Of a stretch of 23,200 bases of DNA, positions 3,124 through 22,373 are shown in pieces. Below the pieces are notes generated by a model, which was given only the letters and a program-made list of their open reading frames with translations, searched no databases and had not been told where the DNA came from. Numbering within the stretch: position 1 is the first letter of the stretch; every line of letters starts with the position of its first letter. The stretch is from positions 1-23,200 of the IMG/VR virus record IMGVR_UViG_3300006805_000171. One strand, written 5' to 3'. This DNA is from a virus. A program made the translations under genes and the position numbers.

Positions 3124-3526
3124 GCTCGGACTCGAGCATATCAATCAGGCGGTCGAGCATGATCGCAGGGACCGCCGACAGGGCGAGGTCTCCGACCTCT
3201 TCGTCGAGAACCTGCCGGAGTGAGATCCGGAAAAACGTCTGCGAGATCGCCCCGACGTACTTCGTCACAGTCCCAATCCGAACCGGCGAATGAGAGTTCA
3301 GGGCTTGATACGCCACCATGAGCGAGACGATCGACGATCTGCTCGCAACGTCTTCCTGAACTCTCAGGGAGAGGTCAACCTTGGCTGCGTGGCTCATGTC
3401 CCGCACCTGCTTCGCGATATCGACGAGGTCGATATCTTTTACGAAGTCCCCTAACTTTGCGCCGGGAAGCGTGGCCCGCTTCGCCCCCCTCATGCTTCGC
3501 GACAGTTCCTTGTCATCTTCGCTCAT
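3086..3526 (-). CDS. Hypothetical protein downstream of integrase
   Basis: The 146-aa product starts at ATG 3526, overlapping the integrase stop as ATGA, so it is translationally coupled to integrase. The N-terminus is rich in charged residues. The central part contains QVRDMSHAAKVDLSLRV and a largely helical, mildly hydrophobic region. No known domain, membrane segment or signal peptide can be read. Its 3' end overlaps the plus-strand HTH gene by 38 nt. Coupling to integrase suggests a role in integration control or lysogeny, but no function is recognised. Confidence 0.6.
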   Translation of the reverse strand: MSEDDKELSRSMRGAKRATLPGAKLGDFVKDIDLVDIAKQVRDMSHAAKVDLSLRVQEDVASRSSIVSLMVAYQALNSHSPVRIGTVTKYVGAISQTFFRISLRQVLDEEVGDLALSAVPAIMLDRLIDMLESEPTSPSQATARDQ

Positions 3527-4422
3527 CCTGCCGGCCTAAATAGGACATCCTTAGGCGCAGGGTTCTCTCGCCCCACGACCGCCGGATCGAGATAGTGCTT
3601 CGTCGTCACGAGCCGGCTGCTGTGGTCCAGCAGCTCCGTCGCGTTCCCGCCTGATGCCTCGAAGTAAGAGGCCGACGACTTCCGCATGCAGTGAAAGCTA
3701 TGCGCCCGGTCGCACGGGAGACCCGCCTTGCGGAGGATCCGCTTGTACTTGTACCAGAGATAGAACGGGTTCATGTCCCAAGGGAACACGAGCGTCGCCT
3801 TCGGGACCTTGAGGCGATACAAGAGTGCGACCGTGTCGGAGTGAAGCTGGTGCTGGCGGTCGCGGGTCTTGTTCTTCCGGTTCTCTGCCCGGAACGTGAC
3901 CCGCGCCGTCGACAGGGATACGTCATTCCATTCGAGCCTCACAACCGCACCGATCCGCTCAGCCGTATCCCAGATGACCGCGTGCAGAGCGGTCCACCAG
4001 AGCGAGGCCGGATGCCCGCCCACCGTGCCGGGCAGTAGCTGCAGGGCCTCGAACAGGCTCCGCAACTCGTCGCGAGTCCACGCGGTGGGAATCCGCTCCG
4101 GCTCCTTCAGTCGCTTCGAGTCGGGCCACTTCGTCATCCAGCCCATCCGGCAGGCGAACGACCAGAGTGTGTGCAGATTGCTCCGGATCTTGTTGGCCCC
4201 GCGCGGCGTGCGGCCCATCCGGAGGAACCACGCCATCATGTCCTGCACGGTGTCGTCCGTCAGGTCGCTCAGCACAGCCGGCCGACCCAGGAACTTCGCC
4301 ATGTTCCTCAAAGTCACCGCGTACTGCTTGACCGTTGAGGCCGCAGCCCAGCGGAGATGTTTTGAGGCATACACCTTGAGAACTTCTCCCACCTCTTCCG
4401 GAATCTTTGCTTCATTCGACAT
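3523..4422 (-). CDS. int: Tyrosine recombinase (phage integrase)
   Basis: The 299-aa protein from ATG 4422 has the integrase layout. An N-terminal SAM-like core-binding domain (about residues 10-100, with STVKQYAVTLRNMAKFL) is followed by the catalytic domain. Catalytic residues can be read as R156 (TAERIGAVVRLEW), K185 (NKTR), H244-x-x-R247 (FHCMRKS), H267 (LDHSS) and nucleophile Y277 (TTKHYLDP). It would catalyse site-specific integration and excision at attP. The open frame extends to 4485, but ATG 4422 is preferred because AAGGG lies upstream and the fold begins there. It is divergent from the excisionase-like gene and coupled to the gene at 3086-3526. The attP site was not identified. 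Confidence 0.92.
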   Translation of the reverse strand: MSNEAKIPEEVGEVLKVYASKHLRWAAASTVKQYAVTLRNMAKFLGRPAVLSDLTDDTVQDMMAWFLRMGRTPRGANKIRSNLHTLWSFACRMGWMTKWPDSKRLKEPERIPTAWTRDELRSLFEALQLLPGTVGGHPASLWWTALHAVIWDTAERIGAVVRLEWNDVSLSTARVTFRAENRKNKTRDRQHQLHSDTVALLYRLKVPKATLVFPWDMNPFYLWYKYKRILRKAGLPCDRAHSFHCMRKSSASYFEASGGNATELLDHSSRLVTTKHYLDPAVVGRENPAPKDVLFRPAG

Positions 4423-4704
4423 GGTTGCCCTTTGATAAGGGTTCAACCTCCCTGCGCGGCTGCTCCTTATATTCCCACGACACATAGGGAACGGCCCGAA
4501 TGGGCAGTTATCTCCAGTCTAATTCTTCAATTCGATGCACGATTTTTGCCTCGGATTCGGGAGACATATCAAGTCAGCGGGATAGATCGCCGATGCTAGA
4601 TAGGCCCCTGCTTCGCATTAGCTAAGGCGTTGCGGTTATTACACTTCTCTTGCACCTGCATTAGAAGTGTCTTGCGCACTTGAATCTTTGAAGTTTGAGT
4701 AAAG
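4423..4704. other. Non-coding region upstream of integrase; attP candidate area
   Basis: About 280 nt without a credible gene lie between integrase and the candidate RNA. The DNA is clearly more AT-rich than its surroundings. It contains an 8-bp perfect inverted repeat ACACTTCT/AGAAGTGT (4641-4648, 4663-4670), and TCTTGC occurs both in its loop and just after it. Integrase promoters and attP arm sites would be expected here, but no convincing -35/-10 pair or att core can be fixed from one sequence. Confidence 0.4.
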
Positions 4705-4840
4705 TCCCGACTCCGGGTGGTAGACGACAAGGCCGTAAGGCCCGTACTAGTGGTTCGGATTATTCCCGCAGGCAAGTTCTCTTCCCTGCGGTCGAGTGCC
4801 AAGCCGCTCTTGAGGTATCGGCCCGGAGTCGGGATTTTTT
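4705..4840 (+). ncRNA. Candidate structured RNA with 13-bp closing stem and terminator tail
   Basis: A perfect 13-bp inverted repeat (4705-4717 with 4822-4834, TCCCGACTCCGGG and its complement) encloses about 104 nt and is followed immediately by TTTTTT (4835-4840). Inside are three further hairpins: GGCC-GTAA-GGCC (4731-4742), CCGCAGG/CCTGCGG (4766-4772, 4785-4791) and GAGTG/CGCTC (4794-4798, 4805-4809). Together they make a multi-branch junction. The outer stem plus U tract would also terminate transcription 44 nt before the excisionase-like gene. It could be a freestanding small RNA or a 5' leader attenuator. No known RNA family is recognised. Confidence 0.5.
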
Positions 4841-4884
4841 CTCTTCAAAACTGTTCCGAGCTGGACCATAATAGGGGCATGATC

Positions 4885-5115
4885 ATGGCAACTCAAGAGT
4901 TGAAAACCTTGCCGACGGACACAATTCCGATCGAAGAGGCCGCGTCCATCATCGGCGTTTCCCTCCGCAGGATCCGGAAGATCTGTGAAAGCGGACGCCT
5001 CGGCTACAAGCTGCGCGTGACCTCCCACGTCGAGGTGTGGGTGATCACCCGGAGCGAGGCTGAGAAGTTCGCCAAGCAGGACCGCCCCTCGGGGCGGCCG
5101 AGGAAGATCGCCTAA
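4885..5115 (+). CDS. Excisionase-like helix-turn-helix protein
   Basis: The 76-aa product starts at ATG 4885, 7 nt after AGGGG; ATG 4879 is a close alternative. The core (residues 14-60) reads IPIEEAASIIGVSLRRIRKICESGRLGYK and then a short wing, VEVWVITRSEAEKFAKQ. This is the MerR-like winged-helix layout of excisionases and other helix-turn-helix domain 17 proteins. The C-terminus is basic (RPSGRPRKIA). It is transcribed divergently from integrase, as expected for a recombination directionality factor. It could instead be an early regulator acting on the repeats just downstream (5116-5342). Confidence 0.75.
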   Translation: MATQELKTLPTDTIPIEEAASIIGVSLRRIRKICESGRLGYKLRVTSHVEVWVITRSEAEKFAKQDRPSGRPRKIA

Positions 5116-17161: not shown

Positions 17162-17465
17162 GTTTCTCGGCCCATCGTGGAGCGATCCGCAGGGGGGCGA
17201 GGTGATCCATATCGGCGACGTTCATCAAGCGGTCCCGCTTCCCATTGCGAAGGAAGTCCCCGCGTCCCAGCCATCCACCATCAGCACGCTCGCAAAGGTG
17301 GCGATGGCGTTCGCTGTCGGTGGTCCGATCGGTGCGGGACTGGCGGCGATCCCGATTGTGCAGTCCTACCTGTCGCGTCCTGCAACCGTGGCTCAGCCGA
17401 CTCCCGTGGAGACGCCTGGAATCAAGCCGAACATTTACGGACTCGAACTGGTGCCGCCGAAATGA
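17004..17465 (+). CDS. Hypothetical protein with C-terminal membrane segment
   Basis: GTG 17004 has GGAGG (16994-16998) 5 nt upstream. The 153-aa product has an amphipathic helical first half (PEEIAQQWARTRLAHEAVML), then GPSWSDPQGGEVIHIGDVHQ. A Gly/Ala-rich hydrophobic segment lies near residues 97-120 (AMAFAVGGPIGAGLAAIPIV), long enough to span a membrane. The tail ends GLELVPPK. The function is not recognised. It is coupled by ATGA to the secreted nuclease-like gene. If the frameshift noted upstream is a sequencing error, the true protein begins at 16910 and is about 30 residues longer. Confidence 0.55.
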   Translation: MAESAPSQINTELPEEIAQQWARTRLAHEAVMLQDAAESLRLDRARTQAHQREFLGPSWSDPQGGEVIHIGDVHQAVPLPIAKEVPASQPSTISTLAKVAMAFAVGGPIGAGLAAIPIVQSYLSRPATVAQPTPVETPGIKPNIYGLELVPPK

Positions 17466-17893
17466 AGCTCAACACATTGCTGGCGATCACCTGTATTGCA
17501 GTCGCAACGAGCGTCTTGCTTCAGGCTAATGCAGAGCCAAGGGGCCCGAAGCCGGCAGTCGTTCCGATGATCCGCGTCCCGGCGGTCATCAACGAGGTTC
17601 ACGACGGCGACACACTCAGTGTCTCATTCGAGTTCTCAGCCCGCATTCGGCTCATCGACTGCTGGGCCCCTGAGCTGAAGAGTGGGGAGCCCGGAGCGAA
17701 GAGCAAGGCGAACCTGATCAAGCTCACCAGCAAGCATCAGCGGTGCATGGTCGAGATTCCGATTCACGACGACATTGGGAGGTCTACCTCGCTGGGTCGC
17801 GTCCTGGCTCGAGTGACTGTTGACGGACAGGACAAGGACCTGTCGACGCAGCAGGTCGTGGGGGGATTCGCCACGCGAGACAAGACCGATTGA
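17462..17893 (+). CDS. Exported staphylococcal-nuclease-like protein
   Basis: The 143-aa product starts at ATG 17462 (ATGA overlap). Residues 1-24 are a signal peptide (LLAITCIAVATSVLLQ core, cleavage after ANA). The mature part follows the SNase fold: INEVHDGDTLSV (D48, D50), RIRLIDCWAPE (R61 or R63, E71), AKSKANLIKL, and DDIGRSTSLGRVLARV with R107 and R113 in the place of the second catalytic Arg, then DLSTQQVVGGFA. The core matches the family, so DNA or RNA cleavage outside the cytoplasm is likely. It ends the cassette, about 100 nt before the packaging genes. Confidence 0.75.
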   Translation: MKLNTLLAITCIAVATSVLLQANAEPRGPKPAVVPMIRVPAVINEVHDGDTLSVSFEFSARIRLIDCWAPELKSGEPGAKSKANLIKLTSKHQRCMVEIPIHDDIGRSTSLGRVLARVTVDGQDKDLSTQQVVGGFATRDKTD

Positions 17894-17993: not shown

Positions 17994-18377
17994 ATGCCAG
18001 CAGATCAGAGGTTTCTGGACCAGACCCTCGAGACGCTCCTCAGCGCTCCCAAGAATCAGGTCGACCTGTCCGAGCTTGCCGAAGCATTGATTACCGAGTT
18101 CGGCGGCCCCCGCGCATTCGCCAAGACAGTGCGTCAGCACTTTCAGGATTCCGCCCCGGGCGGAATGCAGCGCGGCCAGGCGATGAAGATGATTCTGGGC
18201 GTTGTCGAGAAGCATGCCTCGCTGACGAAGGCCGACTCGCGGCCCGAGCAGAGCATGAGCGACGAGGAGCTGAGGATCAACCTCGAGTTGCTGGCTCGTG
18301 AGATGCAGACGCCCGATGCCTCGGCCGCCTCGCCTCCCTCCGAGCCTCCTGCCGAACTCGCGCCGCGAGTCGGCTGA
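17994..18377 (+). CDS. Putative small terminase subunit-like protein
   Basis: The 127-aa product starts at ATG 17994 with a weak SD. It begins with a helical DNA-binding-like segment (LSELAEALITEFGGPRAFAK). A second helical part follows (GQAMKMILGVVEKHASLT), then an acidic helix (SDEELRINLELLAREMQ) and a Pro/Ala-rich tail. Its place directly before the large terminase and this helical pattern fit a small terminase or packaging adaptor, but no diagnostic motif proves it. Its end overlaps the open terminase frame by 80 nt. The 100 nt before it (17894-17993) contain a CCCGC/GCGGG hairpin and no clear promoter. Confidence 0.5.
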   Translation: MPADQRFLDQTLETLLSAPKNQVDLSELAEALITEFGGPRAFAKTVRQHFQDSAPGGMQRGQAMKMILGVVEKHASLTKADSRPEQSMSDEELRINLELLAREMQTPDASAASPPSEPPAELAPRVG

Positions 18378-21300
18378 CGGGTTCTCCGCGTTTGGCGTGA
18401 TCCTGCCGGATGACGACGCTCCTGATGCCGGGGGCATCGACACCGCCGCGGTCGCCCAGGCCCAGAGCAACTCGCAGCGCGCCCGCCTGATGCGGCTCCT
18501 GCAGGAGTACGCCAACCGCAAGGCCGAGGCGCTGAAGGTCTACCGGCCGCTCCCCGCGCAGCTTCGCTTCCATTCCTCGACCGCCGCCGATCGCGTTGTG
18601 AGGGGGAGCAATCGCTGCCTCGCAGGCAGCCAAGAAATCTACGACCCAGTCCATGGGGGGTATCGACGGATCGACGAGATCGACGGGGACTTCCATGTCC
18701 ACTCGCGCGATCCGGGTACGGGAGATCTCCAAGTCCGCCGGGCTTCCCGTCCATTCGTGAAGAGCGAGGGAGAACTCTATGAGTTCACCCTGTCGAATGG
18801 CGAGAAGTTGCGGGCAACTATGGAGCATCGGGTTTTGGATCGGTCCGGGCACTGGATTCCGCTTGGAGTCGCTCTCTCCTCCGGCGCCACCTTGCTCTGC
18901 GAGACGCGTCCATCGCCACTTTCCCCTCCTCGGTCCAGTTCGGAACCCTTCCCGTCCGGGTCGCCTTCAAGTGCTCGCCATTCGATGCGAACAGTTGAAG
19001 ATTATCAGGATGGTTGTTCGCGCGGTTCTCGTCGATGTGATGGACCACTTCGTGCGGCTCAAGCAGCCGGCCGAGCTTCTGCTCCATCACGAGACGGTGC
19101 TCTCGCACATAGCCCGCGTTGTTCGCACTGGGATGCTGAGGACGATACCTCAGGATGTATCCGTGCTTGTCGGTCGTCACGCCGCCCTTCCAGTCAGGAT
19201 GAAGCTCTCCGTTCCGTGGTCCTGTGCGGCGGCCCTGAATTCCGAACCTCCGAAACCGCCGGTTTATGGAGTTCAGGGAAACTCCCTTCGCTTTCGCGAT
19301 CTCTTGCTTTGTCATCAGTCGGACCTCGTACATCTCGCGAAGCTCAGCAGGGTCGAGGTCAATTCGCAGATCCGTTTTTGGCATCCCATCCTCCTGAATT
19401 CTGTGGCACCAATCGCGATGCAGATTGTACCATTGTGGATGTTTGTCCGCTAGGTCACGGATGTATTTTTGACATCACGGTCGAGCCGAACGCGAACTAT
19501 GTCGCTGCGGGATTGGTGAATGCGAACAGCGGGAAATCGCAATGCTGCGGCGCCGAGGTCGCGTGGTGGATGATGGGCTGCCATCCGCACCGCCGCGTGC
19601 CGAAAGAGAACGCCAACTTCATGGCGGTCGGGTGGGACTGGGACCACATCGGCCGCGTCATGTGGCCGAAGGTGGGCCGCGAGGGATCGTTCAAGATGAT
19701 CCGCGACGAGCACTCCCGGGAGTGGAGGCCCGTCATGCCGGACAATGCGTACGACAACGCCTACGCCGAGAAGTGGAAGGACGCTCCGCCGTTCCTGCCG
19801 CCGCGATGGATCAAGAGTATCGCGTGGGAGTGCAAGGCCAAGGATCAGCCCGGGATCATCGAGTGCGTCAACGGGAGCAAGCTCCGGTTCGCCTCGTCGG
19901 CCGGTGCGCCGAAGCAGGGGGACGAAATCGACGGCTGGTGGGCGGACGAGGAACTCGATAACGAGCGATGGATCTCGGAACTCCAGCGCGGCTGCGTGAA
20001 GCGCCGCGGGTCGGGGTTCTACTCCGCAACGCCGCTCGCGTCGTCGATCCAGTTGTTCGAGATGCACCGCCGGGCGATCGACCCGAAGAAGCAGTACGAC
20101 ATCGAGGAGTTTCATCTCCTCATCTCGGACAACGTCTACATCGGGAAGAAGGAGAAAGAAACCTTCTTCAAGCAGCTCCTGACGCCGCAGGACGTCCGGG
20201 TCCGCTGGTACGGCGAGTTCGCGATGAGCGGGCTCGTGGTGTATCCGGAGTGGGCTCCCGAGAAGCATGTCATCGAGCCGTTCGAGATCCCGCACTACTG
20301 GTCGCGATACATGATCGTCGACCCGGGCGTGCAGGTGTGCGCCGTCCTGTTCGCGGCCGTGCCGCCCGAGGAAGAACTCTTCACCTCGCAGCGCGGCGTG
20401 CCGTACGCGCACCGCGGGACGGTCCACATCTACGACGAGCTTTACATCGAGCGATGCACGGCCAGTCTCTTCGCCAAGAAGGTTGCCGAGAAGATGGGCG
20501 ACCGGAAGCGGGGCGAGTTTGAGGCGTTCGTGATCGACCACTCGATGGGCCGGCAGACGGAGCTGGGCTCGGGCCTCAACGTCGAGATCCAGTACAGCGA
20601 CGCGCTGGCGTCCGAGGGCGTTTACTCGCGCGTGACCGGGTCGGGCTTCCTCTGGGGAAGCGACGACATTGAGTCGCGGACGGAGTCGCTCCGCCGCTGG
20701 ATGATGGAGCGACCCGACACCGGCAAGCCGACGCTCAAGATCCACTCCCGCTGCCCGAAGCTCATCTGGGAGATGGGTCAGCAGTTCTACAAGAAGGACA
20801 AAGAAGGCAACGCCACGACGAAGCGGCGCGATGCGAATAACCACGCCGCCAGTTGCTTTGACGCAGAGACGGAAGTCCTTACCGAGAGTGGATGGAAGCG
20901 ATTCTACGACCTGTCTCCGGCAGAATCCTTGGCTACGGTCAACCTGGAGACGGACCTGATTGAGTATCAGGTGCCGTCTCGGCTGATTGCCAAGAGACAT
21001 TTCGGCGAAATGGTGAAGATTGGAGGGAGCCCAAGGCAGCGGCTCGACTGCCTCGTTACCCCGGACCATCGCATGGTGGTTTACGAGAAGCATGGAGATG
21101 GAAAGCCCGTCATTCGCTTGGCGGGCGAGCTGAGCATCTGGGATTCCATCAAGACGCGAGCGTCATGGGCTGGAAAGAAGTACGACAAGGTGGTCATCCC
21201 GAAGGCGGGAAGACTTGGCGGTGATCGGGAAGTTGATCCCGGAGACTTCGCTGAGCTGTGTGGCTGGTACGTTTCCGAAGGGTGCTGCGACAAGACGATC

Positions 21301-22041
21301 CGAATCCCTGGAAAAGGCTACCGGGTCACAATCTCTCAGGTGAAGCCCGAAGGCCGCAAGAGAATCCGCGACCTCGTTGATCGGCTTCCTTGGAACTGGG
21401 TGAGCACTCCGGGCGGGTTCGTGGCATCTAGTCGTCAGCTTTGGGAATACTTCTCCAGGTTCGGGAAGGGATTTCTCGAGAAGCGAGTTCCGCAGTGGAT
21501 TCGAGATGGCGAGCCGAAACTCATCCAGCGGTTTCTTGAAGGCGCCGTGATGGGGGATGGGAGTCGGCGACCGAACAGTGAGTGCTACTTCACGTCGAGC
21601 CCCATGCTCGCTGGGGACATTCAGGAGCTTTACCTGAAGTCTGGTTTCTCTACGTCTATGAGGCCACGCCCAGCGGGCACCACTACGTTAATCCGCGGAA
21701 AGCCATGCACCACTCGACATCCGTCGATTCGAGTTGGTCGGCGGCTTGAGCGCAAGGCGTCCCTGCGGGATGCCTACAACAGGCCAAACTTCGAGACTGT
21801 CCATTATGAGGGCATGGTCTATTGTGCTTCCGTGCCCAACGGCACGCTCATTGTTCGGAGAAACGGCAACGTAATCATTGCCGGGAACTGCCTCGAATAC
21901 CTGGCCGACCTCGCTCCGGACTGGACGCCCCCGAAGAAGGCGGCGCCTCGCGATTCGTGGGCGGTCCAGCAGTTGAACAACAAGCGAAGGAAGGCCGGGG
22001 CGTCCGGCGGATCCTTCTCCATTTCCCTGGGACCGAGCTGA
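18298..22041 (+). CDS. terL: Terminase large subunit interrupted by two inteins
   Basis: The 1247-aa precursor holds three extein segments (residues 1-106, 411-852, 1198-1247) and two inteins (107-410 and 853-1197). Spliced length is about 598 aa, or about 565 if GTG 18397 is the start; ATG 18298 overlaps the upstream gene and neither has a strong SD. Walker A becomes GSNRSGKS only after the first splice (G103-R106 joined to S411-S414). Walker B is IDGWWADEE (D550, E551). The RNase H-like nuclease shows MIVDPG (D675), FVIDHS (D747) and NNHAAS joined to CLEYL by the second splice. The product packages phage DNA: ATP-driven translocation plus headful or site cutting. Both inteins disrupt catalytic motifs, so unspliced protein should be inactive. 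Confidence 0.95.
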   Translation: MRCRRPMPRPPRLPPSLLPNSRRESADGFSAFGVILPDDDAPDAGGIDTAAVAQAQSNSQRARLMRLLQEYANRKAEALKVYRPLPAQLRFHSSTAADRVVRGSNRCLAGSQEIYDPVHGGYRRIDEIDGDFHVHSRDPGTGDLQVRRASRPFVKSEGELYEFTLSNGEKLRATMEHRVLDRSGHWIPLGVALSSGATLLCETRPSPLSPPRSSSEPFPSGSPSSARHSMRTVEDYQDGCSRGSRRCDGPLRAAQAAGRASAPSRDGALAHSPRCSHWDAEDDTSGCIRACRSSRRPSSQDEALRSVVLCGGPEFRTSETAGLWSSGKLPSLSRSLALSSVGPRTSREAQQGRGQFADPFLASHPPEFCGTNRDADCTIVDVCPLGHGCIFDITVEPNANYVAAGLVNANSGKSQCCGAEVAWWMMGCHPHRRVPKENANFMAVGWDWDHIGRVMWPKVGREGSFKMIRDEHSREWRPVMPDNAYDNAYAEKWKDAPPFLPPRWIKSIAWECKAKDQPGIIECVNGSKLRFASSAGAPKQGDEIDGWWADEELDNERWISELQRGCVKRRGSGFYSATPLASSIQLFEMHRRAIDPKKQYDIEEFHLLISDNVYIGKKEKETFFKQLLTPQDVRVRWYGEFAMSGLVVYPEWAPEKHVIEPFEIPHYWSRYMIVDPGVQVCAVLFAAVPPEEELFTSQRGVPYAHRGTVHIYDELYIERCTASLFAKKVAEKMGDRKRGEFEAFVIDHSMGRQTELGSGLNVEIQYSDALASEGVYSRVTGSGFLWGSDDIESRTESLRRWMMERPDTGKPTLKIHSRCPKLIWEMGQQFYKKDKEGNATTKRRDANNHAASCFDAETEVLTESGWKRFYDLSPAESLATVNLETDLIEYQVPSRLIAKRHFGEMVKIGGSPRQRLDCLVTPDHRMVVYEKHGDGKPVIRLAGELSIWDSIKTRASWAGKKYDKVVIPKAGRLGGDREVDPGDFAELCGWYVSEGCCDKTIRIPGKGYRVTISQVKPEGRKRIRDLVDRLPWNWVSTPGGFVASSRQLWEYFSRFGKGFLEKRVPQWIRDGEPKLIQRFLEGAVMGDGSRRPNSECYFTSSPMLAGDIQELYLKSGFSTSMRPRPAGTTTLIRGKPCTTRHPSIRVGRRLERKASLRDAYNRPNFETVHYEGMVYCASVPNGTLIVRRNGNVIIAGNCLEYLADLAPDWTPPKKAAPRDSWAVQQLNNKRRKAGASGGSFSISLGPS
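18818..19384 (-). CDS. HNH homing endonuclease nested antisense within intein 1
   Basis: The 188-aa product begins at ATG 19384 with AGGAGG 5 nt upstream (19390-19395 on the complement). Residues 11-48 (LREMYEVRLMTKQEIAKAKG and then VSLNSINRRFRRFGI) form a helix-turn-helix. The HNH_3-type core follows: HGYILRY, then GYVREHRLVMEQKLGRLL and HEVVHHIDENRANNHPDNL (H115, H116, D118, N120, N123, N128), and NGEHLK with H138. The C-terminus is Arg-rich. The whole gene lies inside the intein and ends inside block B. It replaces the endonuclease domain that inteins normally carry on the sense strand and could make the intein mobile. Confidence 0.93.
   Translation of the reverse strand: MPKTDLRIDLDPAELREMYEVRLMTKQEIAKAKGVSLNSINRRFRRFGIQGRRTGPRNGELHPDWKGGVTTDKHGYILRYRPQHPSANNAGYVREHRLVMEQKLGRLLEPHEVVHHIDENRANNHPDNLQLFASNGEHLKATRTGRVPNWTEEGKVAMDASRRARWRRRRERLQAESSARTDPKPDAP
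19390..19432 (-). promoter_or_regulatory. Extended -10 promoter-like site and SD for the antisense HNH gene
   Basis: Read on the minus strand, TGGTACAAT (19432-19424) is a good extended -10 (TGn-TACAAT). AGGAGG (19395-19390) follows about 28 nt later and sits 5 nt before the ATG. No clear -35 is present, as is common with extended -10 sites. The element lies within the intein block F coding sequence. Confidence 0.55.
20854..21888 (+). mobile_element. Intein 2 (in terminase nuclease motif) with LAGLIDADG endonuclease
   Basis: This 345-aa intein starts at Cys853 (block A CFDAETEVLTESGWKRFYDL) and ends at Asn1197 before Cys1198. Block B is LVTPDHRMVVYEK (TxxH). The central domain has two LAGLIDADG-type helices, FAELCGWYVSEGCCD and IQRFLEGAVMGDGSRR. 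The C-terminal blocks read MVYCASVPNGTLIVRRNGN and VIIAGN. The penultimate residue is Gly instead of His. Insertion splits NNHAAS from CLEYL, the conserved C-terminal helix of the terminase nuclease. Unlike intein 1, it encodes its endonuclease in the sense frame. Confidence 0.95.
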
Positions 22042-22043
22042 TT

Positions 22044-22373
22044 ATGACCGCCGTTCTGCCTCCTGAAATCAAGACCGACGCGGACCTCGCCAGGCCGGCG
22101 AAGCCGCGGAAGGAACGTCCCGAGCCCGAGGCTCCGCCGGAGCCGAAGCACAGGAACTTCATGGGCCAGATGGTTCGCTGGCGGCACCCCGGCGGCGAGT
22201 GGTTCCCGGCTCTCGTCCGCTATGTCAACGGCGACGGGACGCTGCGGCTGACGGTGTTCACGAACAACCCGACGCCGGACACCTCGAAGATGTGCGTCTG
22301 CCACATCAGCGAGTCGAACAACGTGTCGGAAGGGCGGAGCCATTACGGAATGTGGGACTACCTCGAAGGCTGA
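22044..22373 (+). CDS. Hypothetical protein between terminase and portal
   Basis: The 109-aa product starts at ATG 22044, 2 nt after the terminase stop. A charged, Pro-rich N-terminus (PAKPRKERPEPEAPPEPKH) precedes a compact beta-rich domain (GQMVRWRHPGGEWFPALVR, then NGDGTLRLTVFTNN and MCVCHISESNN). The motif VRWRHPGGEWFPALV resembles small SH3-like barrels. No enzyme motif is present. Place in the head-gene cluster suggests a packaging or head accessory role, which is inference. Confidence 0.6.
   Translation: MTAVLPPEIKTDADLARPAKPRKERPEPEAPPEPKHRNFMGQMVRWRHPGGEWFPALVRYVNGDGTLRLTVFTNNPTPDTSKMCVCHISESNNVSEGRSHYGMWDYLEG

Follow-up and report, generated by a model that had tools for sequence, protein, structure and literature searches.

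The window analysed here is the whole 23,200-nt stretch of a virus contig (IMG/VR record IMGVR_UViG_3300006805_000171, 23.2 kb). It carries a gene for a terminase large subunit (TerL) whose open reading frame (ORF; 18298-22041, plus strand) contains no break anywhere in the ORF list, although it includes an entire intein that overlaps an HNH endonuclease gene on the complementary strand. The features of the locus, with the evidence for each, are as follows.

18298-18615 (+): N-extein of TerL, ending in GSNR, the start of Walker A (ORF list; phrog_2; junction alignment with relatives)
18616-19527 (+): intein 1, 304 aa, C1 to N304 (translation; intein_Nterm/intein_Cterm; family alignment)
18616-18909 (+): IntN splicing half, aa 1-98, blocks A and B, with H71 of block B (AlphaFold pLDDT; PF14890)
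18818-19384 (-): antisense HTH-HNH_3 endonuclease gene, 188 aa, ATG start, TAG stop (Pfam/PHROG; structure model)
18910-19422 (+): sense-strand loop, aa 99-269, predicted to be disordered, opposite most of the HNH gene (pLDDT; residues unconserved)
19390-19395 (-): Shine-Dalgarno (SD) sequence AGGAGG of the HNH gene (sequence; SD enrichment in 56 representatives)
19423-19527 (+): IntC splicing half, aa 270-304, blocks F and G, with Ala303 in place of the penultimate His (pLDDT 97-98; alignment)
19424-19432 (-): extended -10-like site TGGTACAAT upstream of the HNH gene, inside IntC (sequence; family enrichment of promoter-like sites)
19528-20853 (+): C-extein, with the remainder of Walker A (SGKS) and most of TerL (phrog_2, 3.5e-12; Terminase_6N)
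20854-21888 (+): second intein of TerL, 345 aa, of the ordinary in-frame LAGLIDADG type (LAGLIDADG_3; translation)

The intein and its antisense gene

Intein 1 spans residues 107-410 of the TerL ORF, splitting Walker A between GSNR and SGKS, and the ORF matches the NCBIfam profiles intein_Nterm (3.7e-7) and intein_Cterm (0.002). The true start codon of the N-extein is uncertain. Residues C1, H71, D286 and N304 are invariant in an alignment of 47 family members, fulfilling the expectations for block B, block F and the terminal Asn, and the +1 residue is Ser, so that the class 1 pairing of C1 with a Cys, Ser or Thr nucleophile at +1 is also present. The penultimate residue of block G is Ala303 and does not meet the expectation of His; the His is nearly invariant in the family, with Lys or Arg in some members that have an intact HNH gene. 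A penultimate His is usual in class 1 inteins and not strictly required. It is possible that the window's intein splices less well, given this substitution. The first-pass annotation, which had described blocks A, B, F and G as intact, was thus right in part, with block G not fully canonical.

An AlphaFold model of the intein is confident at both ends (pLDDT 95-98 for residues 1-90, 81 for 91-100 and 97-98 for 271-304), with pLDDT of ~45-58 across the sense overlap (residues 101-270). The overlap is therefore predicted to form a disordered segment between the two halves of a HINT fold. This fold assignment is supported by Foldseek, which matches the model to the inteins of NpuDnaE and Mtu RecA (E down to 2e-6, TMt ~0.8). 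Profiles from Pfam, PHROG and NCBIfam gave no sense-strand endonuclease match in intein 1; with the overlap predicted to be disordered, we reject an in-frame endonuclease. We likewise reject a group I intron with an antisense endonuclease gene, since no Rfam intron matched within 18200-22100 at E up to 1.

The antisense protein matches Pfam HNH_3 at 1.5e-9 (37.7 bits, curated cut-off 24.8) and the HNH endonuclease family phrog_10730 at 7.6e-31, and its predicted structure (mean pLDDT 91) has an N-terminal HTH and an HNH core. HNH_3 is matched in 51 of 51 family members. The nearest solved HNH structure is I-HmuI (PDB 1u3e), a weak match (sequence E 0.0022, fold E 0.24), but the sole HNH structure retrieved by sequence and the first-ranked by fold. 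H96, R106, E112, H116, N124 and N128 are among the HNH residues that do not vary in the family; thus two of the residues singled out earlier, H116 and N128, are invariant, and three others, D118, N120 and N123, are not. The gene had been placed in the usual endonuclease region of the intein, which is correct except that its C-terminal tail also overlaps block B, so that both strands are constrained there.

The claim of a 188-aa HNH_3-type gene with an AGGAGG Shine-Dalgarno sequence held on Pfam, PHROG and sequence evidence; the AGGAGG (19395-19390, minus strand) lies 5 nt before the HNH ATG. The claim of a promoter-like site held in part: TGGTACAAT is present at 19432-19424, and only its extended -10 is good. 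For that reason a generic sigma-70 promoter scan of the window called no site at the HNH gene, and the promoter claim rests on family statistics.

Two further features of the window are recorded here. The second intein matches LAGLIDADG_3 (Pfam, 7.7e-5) over a 338-aa stretch, so this one terminase gene contains both an antisense-HNH intein and an in-frame LAGLIDADG intein. A short ORF at 17460-17893 (+) has a motif, HDGDTLSV, that resembles staphylococcal-nuclease-like proteins; this assignment is by sequence resemblance only.

Constraint and expression signals on the two strands

Coding tests were performed on 56 representatives with less than 70% identity. In the phase of this overlap, a sense stop requires an HNH codon ending in TT, TC or CT followed by a codon starting with A. 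The representatives contain no sense stops in 11,840 codons, compared to ~375 expected under within-gene synonymous shuffling; the other two antisense frames of the same sequences contain 403 and 622, and free-standing HNH relatives outside inteins do have stops in this frame. Codon choice shows the same avoidance. Phe is never followed by Met, Ile, Lys, Asn or Thr (0 observed, 42 expected), Ile before A-starting codons is encoded by ATA in 73/73 cases versus 78/472 elsewhere, and NCT codons before A-starting codons number 0/619 versus 615/1571 elsewhere. When the window's own HNH gene was shuffled synonymously with its own codons, the sense frame stayed open in 0 of 2000 shuffles (mean 6.9 stops). 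With this result and ~100 other loci sharing the layout, we reject a sense frame open by chance. The sense frame had been described as open over the overlap, and it is open across the whole intein.

Close pairs of relatives show HNH-frame dN far below dS, whereas the sense frame of the same DNA has dN above dS in most close pairs and its residues are not conserved. The sense loop is therefore mostly constrained just to stay open. A conserved sense-strand domain in homologous inteins would have refuted the first-pass reading; this outcome did not arise, since the overlap is conserved as HNH and the sense frame is not. In most pairs, synonymous change in HNH is slower than in the flanking intein and extein; we note that, within the HNH part, such slowing where both strands are coding can look like recent transfer.

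Expression signals upstream of the antisense gene are enriched across the family. Shine-Dalgarno sequences of at least 5 nt occur at 17 of 56 HNH starts (0.65 expected). Promoter-like sites scoring at least 9/12 within 120 nt upstream are found in 35 of 55, compared to 13.8 after sense-strand synonymous recoding, and an exact TTGACA upstream of HNH in 15, compared to 2.75 with the same control. The sites fall into two classes: in class 1 the -10 lies ~38 nt upstream of HNH and an SD is present in 20/26, and in class 2 the -10 lies ~14 nt upstream and an SD is present in 0/9 (Fisher p 7e-5). Neither this test nor the promoter-like site statistics are corrected for shared ancestry. Nine loci (L120, L124, L101, L076, L065, L080, L118, L122 and L024) have a -10-like sequence ~12-15 nt before the HNH ATG and no SD. 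Class 2 genes are probably translated from leaderless messages, as inferred only from their sequences.

Distribution, alleles and mobility

Using the window's HNH protein as query, we identified 43 loci in IMG/VR, and a 13-member HNH profile added at least ~77 more. We screened these for an antisense HNH within one open ORF bearing both intein halves, using intein profiles built from the first set. A total of 106 records pass, corresponding to ~102 contigs including the window once repeats (L001, L098, L103, L106) are removed, and five more match the layout on inspection (L045, L046, L059, L083, L112). Two of these five are cultured phages: Pectobacterium phage Abuela (L045), whose 754-aa intein-bearing protein is annotated as hypothetical, and Pseudoalteromonas phage PHS3 (L046), whose 708-aa ORF is publicly annotated as a truncated terminase with HNH as a separate gene. 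The same HNH occurs in seven more cultured Pectobacterium/Dickeya phages. Ten bacterial genome records also have the layout (L205-L212, L214, L242); the length and coordinates of one, L210, are identical to those of viral locus L090. A search of a plasmid collection returned only distant HNH matches, the layout of which is unexamined. Relatives with the same antisense layout thus exist and form a widespread single-phase class, not a local oddity. An assembly error, another outcome that would have refuted the earlier reading, is ruled out by the ~100 independent contigs and the cultured phages that share the layout.

The relative phase of the two genes is identical in 106/106 records, with HNH codon position 1 facing sense position 1 and position 3 facing position 2, and the genome cases checked keep this phase (p1 opposite p1), except L284. 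Host proteins are mostly terminases, of several families, and the insertion point is the P-loop (for example GGNR^SGKT, GNRxGK^T or GGRG^SGKS). In records from Acidobacteria (L205/L206) and Polaromonas (L211), the element lies in helicase-like proteins, also within the P-loop; judging by sequence, these would be two other kinds of P-loop protein. In the window and ~100 loci, the intein is contained in one ORF and so is not a split intein, which would have its halves in separate ORFs.

Several loci depart from the standard arrangement. Among loci that failed the screen and were inspected afterwards, one, L085 (480-773, minus; 2-490, plus), is ambiguous and interrupted: in a non-terminase P-loop protein, the N half of the intein stops just before the antisense HNH, at a contig end. 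It could be a split-intein derivative or a broken copy; a search for its relatives returned only its own contig. In L284, from an Actinomycetes MAG (3230-4885, minus; 3395-4201, plus), the host protein of the intein is itself HNH-like, and a zinc-finger HNH gene runs antisense to the intein in a different, codon-aligned phase that is open there. This locus may represent an independent origin of antisense overlap, and no relatives of its HNH were found. In L034 (4891-5454) and L040 (3439-3969), with inteins of 188 and 177 aa, the HNH ORFs are shortened to 73 and 62 aa; these genes are probably decaying, with the sense frame still open. In Polaromonas sp. CG9_12, the element-bearing region occurs twice, as L211 and L218, at opposite contig ends. 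The intein reading frame is broken in L218, and the repeat may be an assembly or circular overlap.

To sample alleles, we used relative L018 as a TerL query and fetched 80 loci of 84-100% identity regardless of HNH. Sixty-one are exact empty sites with GGNR-SGKT intact and 19 are occupied: 15 with an intact antisense HNH, three with mini-inteins and one cut by the contig end. Exact insertion with empty alleles is thus demonstrated in relatives only; no relatives of the window's own TerL C-extein were found among the viral contigs searched. The mini-inteins (L155, L169 and L185; 136, 132 and 136 aa) occupy the same TerL site and have no antisense HNH. These natural mini-inteins suggest that the overlap region is probably dispensable for splicing, an inference from sequence alone.

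Comparisons of alleles also indicate horizontal spread. On either side of the insertion, occupied L125 matches empty L182 at 99.5% and 94.8% of positions; L125 and L192 have 87% of the intein in common, although a third of their N-extein sites differ. Occupied alleles have a divergent flank of 30-60 nt: over the first 30 nt downstream, identity to the nearest empty allele is 0.74, compared to 0.92 when empty alleles are set against each other as a control. TCG encodes the +1 Ser in 15/19 occupied versus 0/61 empty alleles. A short coconverted tract, as homing predicts, would leave such a flank; selection for an uncuttable flank is a possible alternative. Distances among HNH, intein and extein sequences correlate about equally (Mantel r 0.56-0.59), and transfer and descent therefore cannot be separated on deep branches.

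A probable dual-strand homing intein and its alternatives

We conclude that the element is very likely a bipartite, dual-strand-coded homing intein. Its layout, the selection on both strands, the empty, full and mini alleles, the horizontal spread and the coconversion-like flanks are shown, and the folds are predicted by models. Splicing, antisense transcription, cutting and cut-driven spread are inferred, as in the following model. Read with the terminase, the HINT intein should cut itself out and restore Walker A; opposite HNH, its sequence would mostly need only to lack stop codons and would become a floppy loop. The opposite strand would produce an HTH-HNH endonuclease from its own promoter and ribosome-binding site, in some relatives probably from a leaderless message. 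The enzyme would most likely cut intein-less P-loop sites, and repair of the cut would copy the whole element, intein and antisense gene together. The first-pass reading of a splicing element with a separate antisense HNH mobility gene is supported at this level, its mobility part by the empty sites, HNH-less mini-inteins and coconversion-like flanks. It had also proposed that HNH invaded a mini-intein or a decayed endonuclease domain; our data favour neither entry into a mini-intein nor replacement of an older in-frame endonuclease.

We considered four rival explanations. In the first, HNH serves mainly to exclude intein-less phages that infect the same cell, and the element is copied only incidentally. 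Phage intron HNH enzymes have been reported to act in competitive exclusion (work cited in PMC6669764), and the altered flanks of occupied alleles could resist cutting. However, the coconversion-like flanks and the spread to unrelated P-loop genes fit copying. We regard this rival as unlikely, while noting that exclusion and homing roles are not mutually exclusive. In the second, the antisense HNH aids DNA packaging, not homing. Other HNH proteins encoded beside terminases are known to take part in packaging, and terminases are the usual host gene here. Against this, 61 of 80 close TerL relatives lack both the element and an HNH at the site, the same element lies in helicase-like proteins of Acidobacteria and Polaromonas, and the HNH gene runs against the terminase with promoter-like sites of its own; we consider this rival very unlikely. 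A third, in which the sense ORF is accidental and HNH broke the terminase or the intein is dead, could point to Ala303 in the window copy and the shortened HNH genes in L034 and L040, but is all but excluded by the 0 stops in 11,840 codons, the strong codon avoidance, the invariant splicing residues and the cultured phages with the element in their TerL gene. The fourth, that a genuine domain is encoded on the sense strand and the HNH ORF merely mirrors it by chance, draws on the abundance of long antisense ORFs in GC-rich DNA, with many in the window, and is all but excluded by HNH_3 matches in 51/51, the confident fold, SD and promoter enrichment, HNH-frame dN far below dS and the disordered sense overlap.

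We found no description of an antisense endonuclease inside an intein in the open-access literature searched. Canonical homing inteins, including those of mycobacteriophage terminases (Kelley et al. 2016, PMC5050341), likewise have a HINT domain, lie in the ATPase domain of TerL, are distributed sporadically and have empty alleles. Their endonuclease is normally an in-frame part of the protein, which intein 1 lacks; in our element it is encoded apart, by an antisense gene that has a start of its own, opposite a disordered sense loop. The ShiLan element (Arsenault et al. 2025, PMC11855218), in which an out-of-frame HNH gene is concealed within a phage methylase gene, is similar in having HNH in another frame of an insertion that is open in the host frame. 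That HNH lies on the same strand in the third frame, its authors found no intein or intron, and no antisense case is reported in their paper (PMC11855218); our element differs on both points, with HNH antisense and HINT present. Fractured genes (Dassa et al. 2009) reportedly combine a split intein with an endonuclease gene that stands free between its two halves. They resemble our element in having a separate endonuclease gene where the intein endonuclease domain would be, but our intein is uninterrupted, in a single ORF, and is overlapped by the endonuclease gene on the complementary strand. L085 might be a link between the two arrangements. Antisense His-Cys homing endonuclease genes are known in nuclear group I introns, for example in Porphyra (PMC2585584), and also lie opposite the host gene strand within a splicing element. 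Such introns splice as RNA and their sense strand need not stay open, whereas here the sense strand must be translated through. I-HmuI, the HNH enzyme of a phage group I intron, shares the HNH core, but the similarity is weak and its host is an intron.

Inteins are the textbook case of splicing and mobility fused in one protein; here the two functions share DNA, not protein, which adds a third arrangement to the fused and the split/fractured ones. The overlap is a rare natural case of long antisense coding with strong, measurable selection on both strands, and could calibrate tests for overlapping genes. The arrangement explains terminases annotated as truncated or hypothetical, as in phages PHS3 and Abuela, and cultured phages make the dual-strand intein directly testable. 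More broadly, it is likely that these elements form a widespread group of homing inteins, old in origin and aimed at P-loops: the two strands of one DNA segment code for a disordered loop compatible with splicing and for a complete, independently expressed endonuclease, and a single-phase ancestral overlap has spread through unrelated phage terminases and helicase-like proteins. If so, expression of the endonuclease would be unlinked from that of the late packaging gene, and the mobility gene could be lost only in ways that keep the sense frame open.
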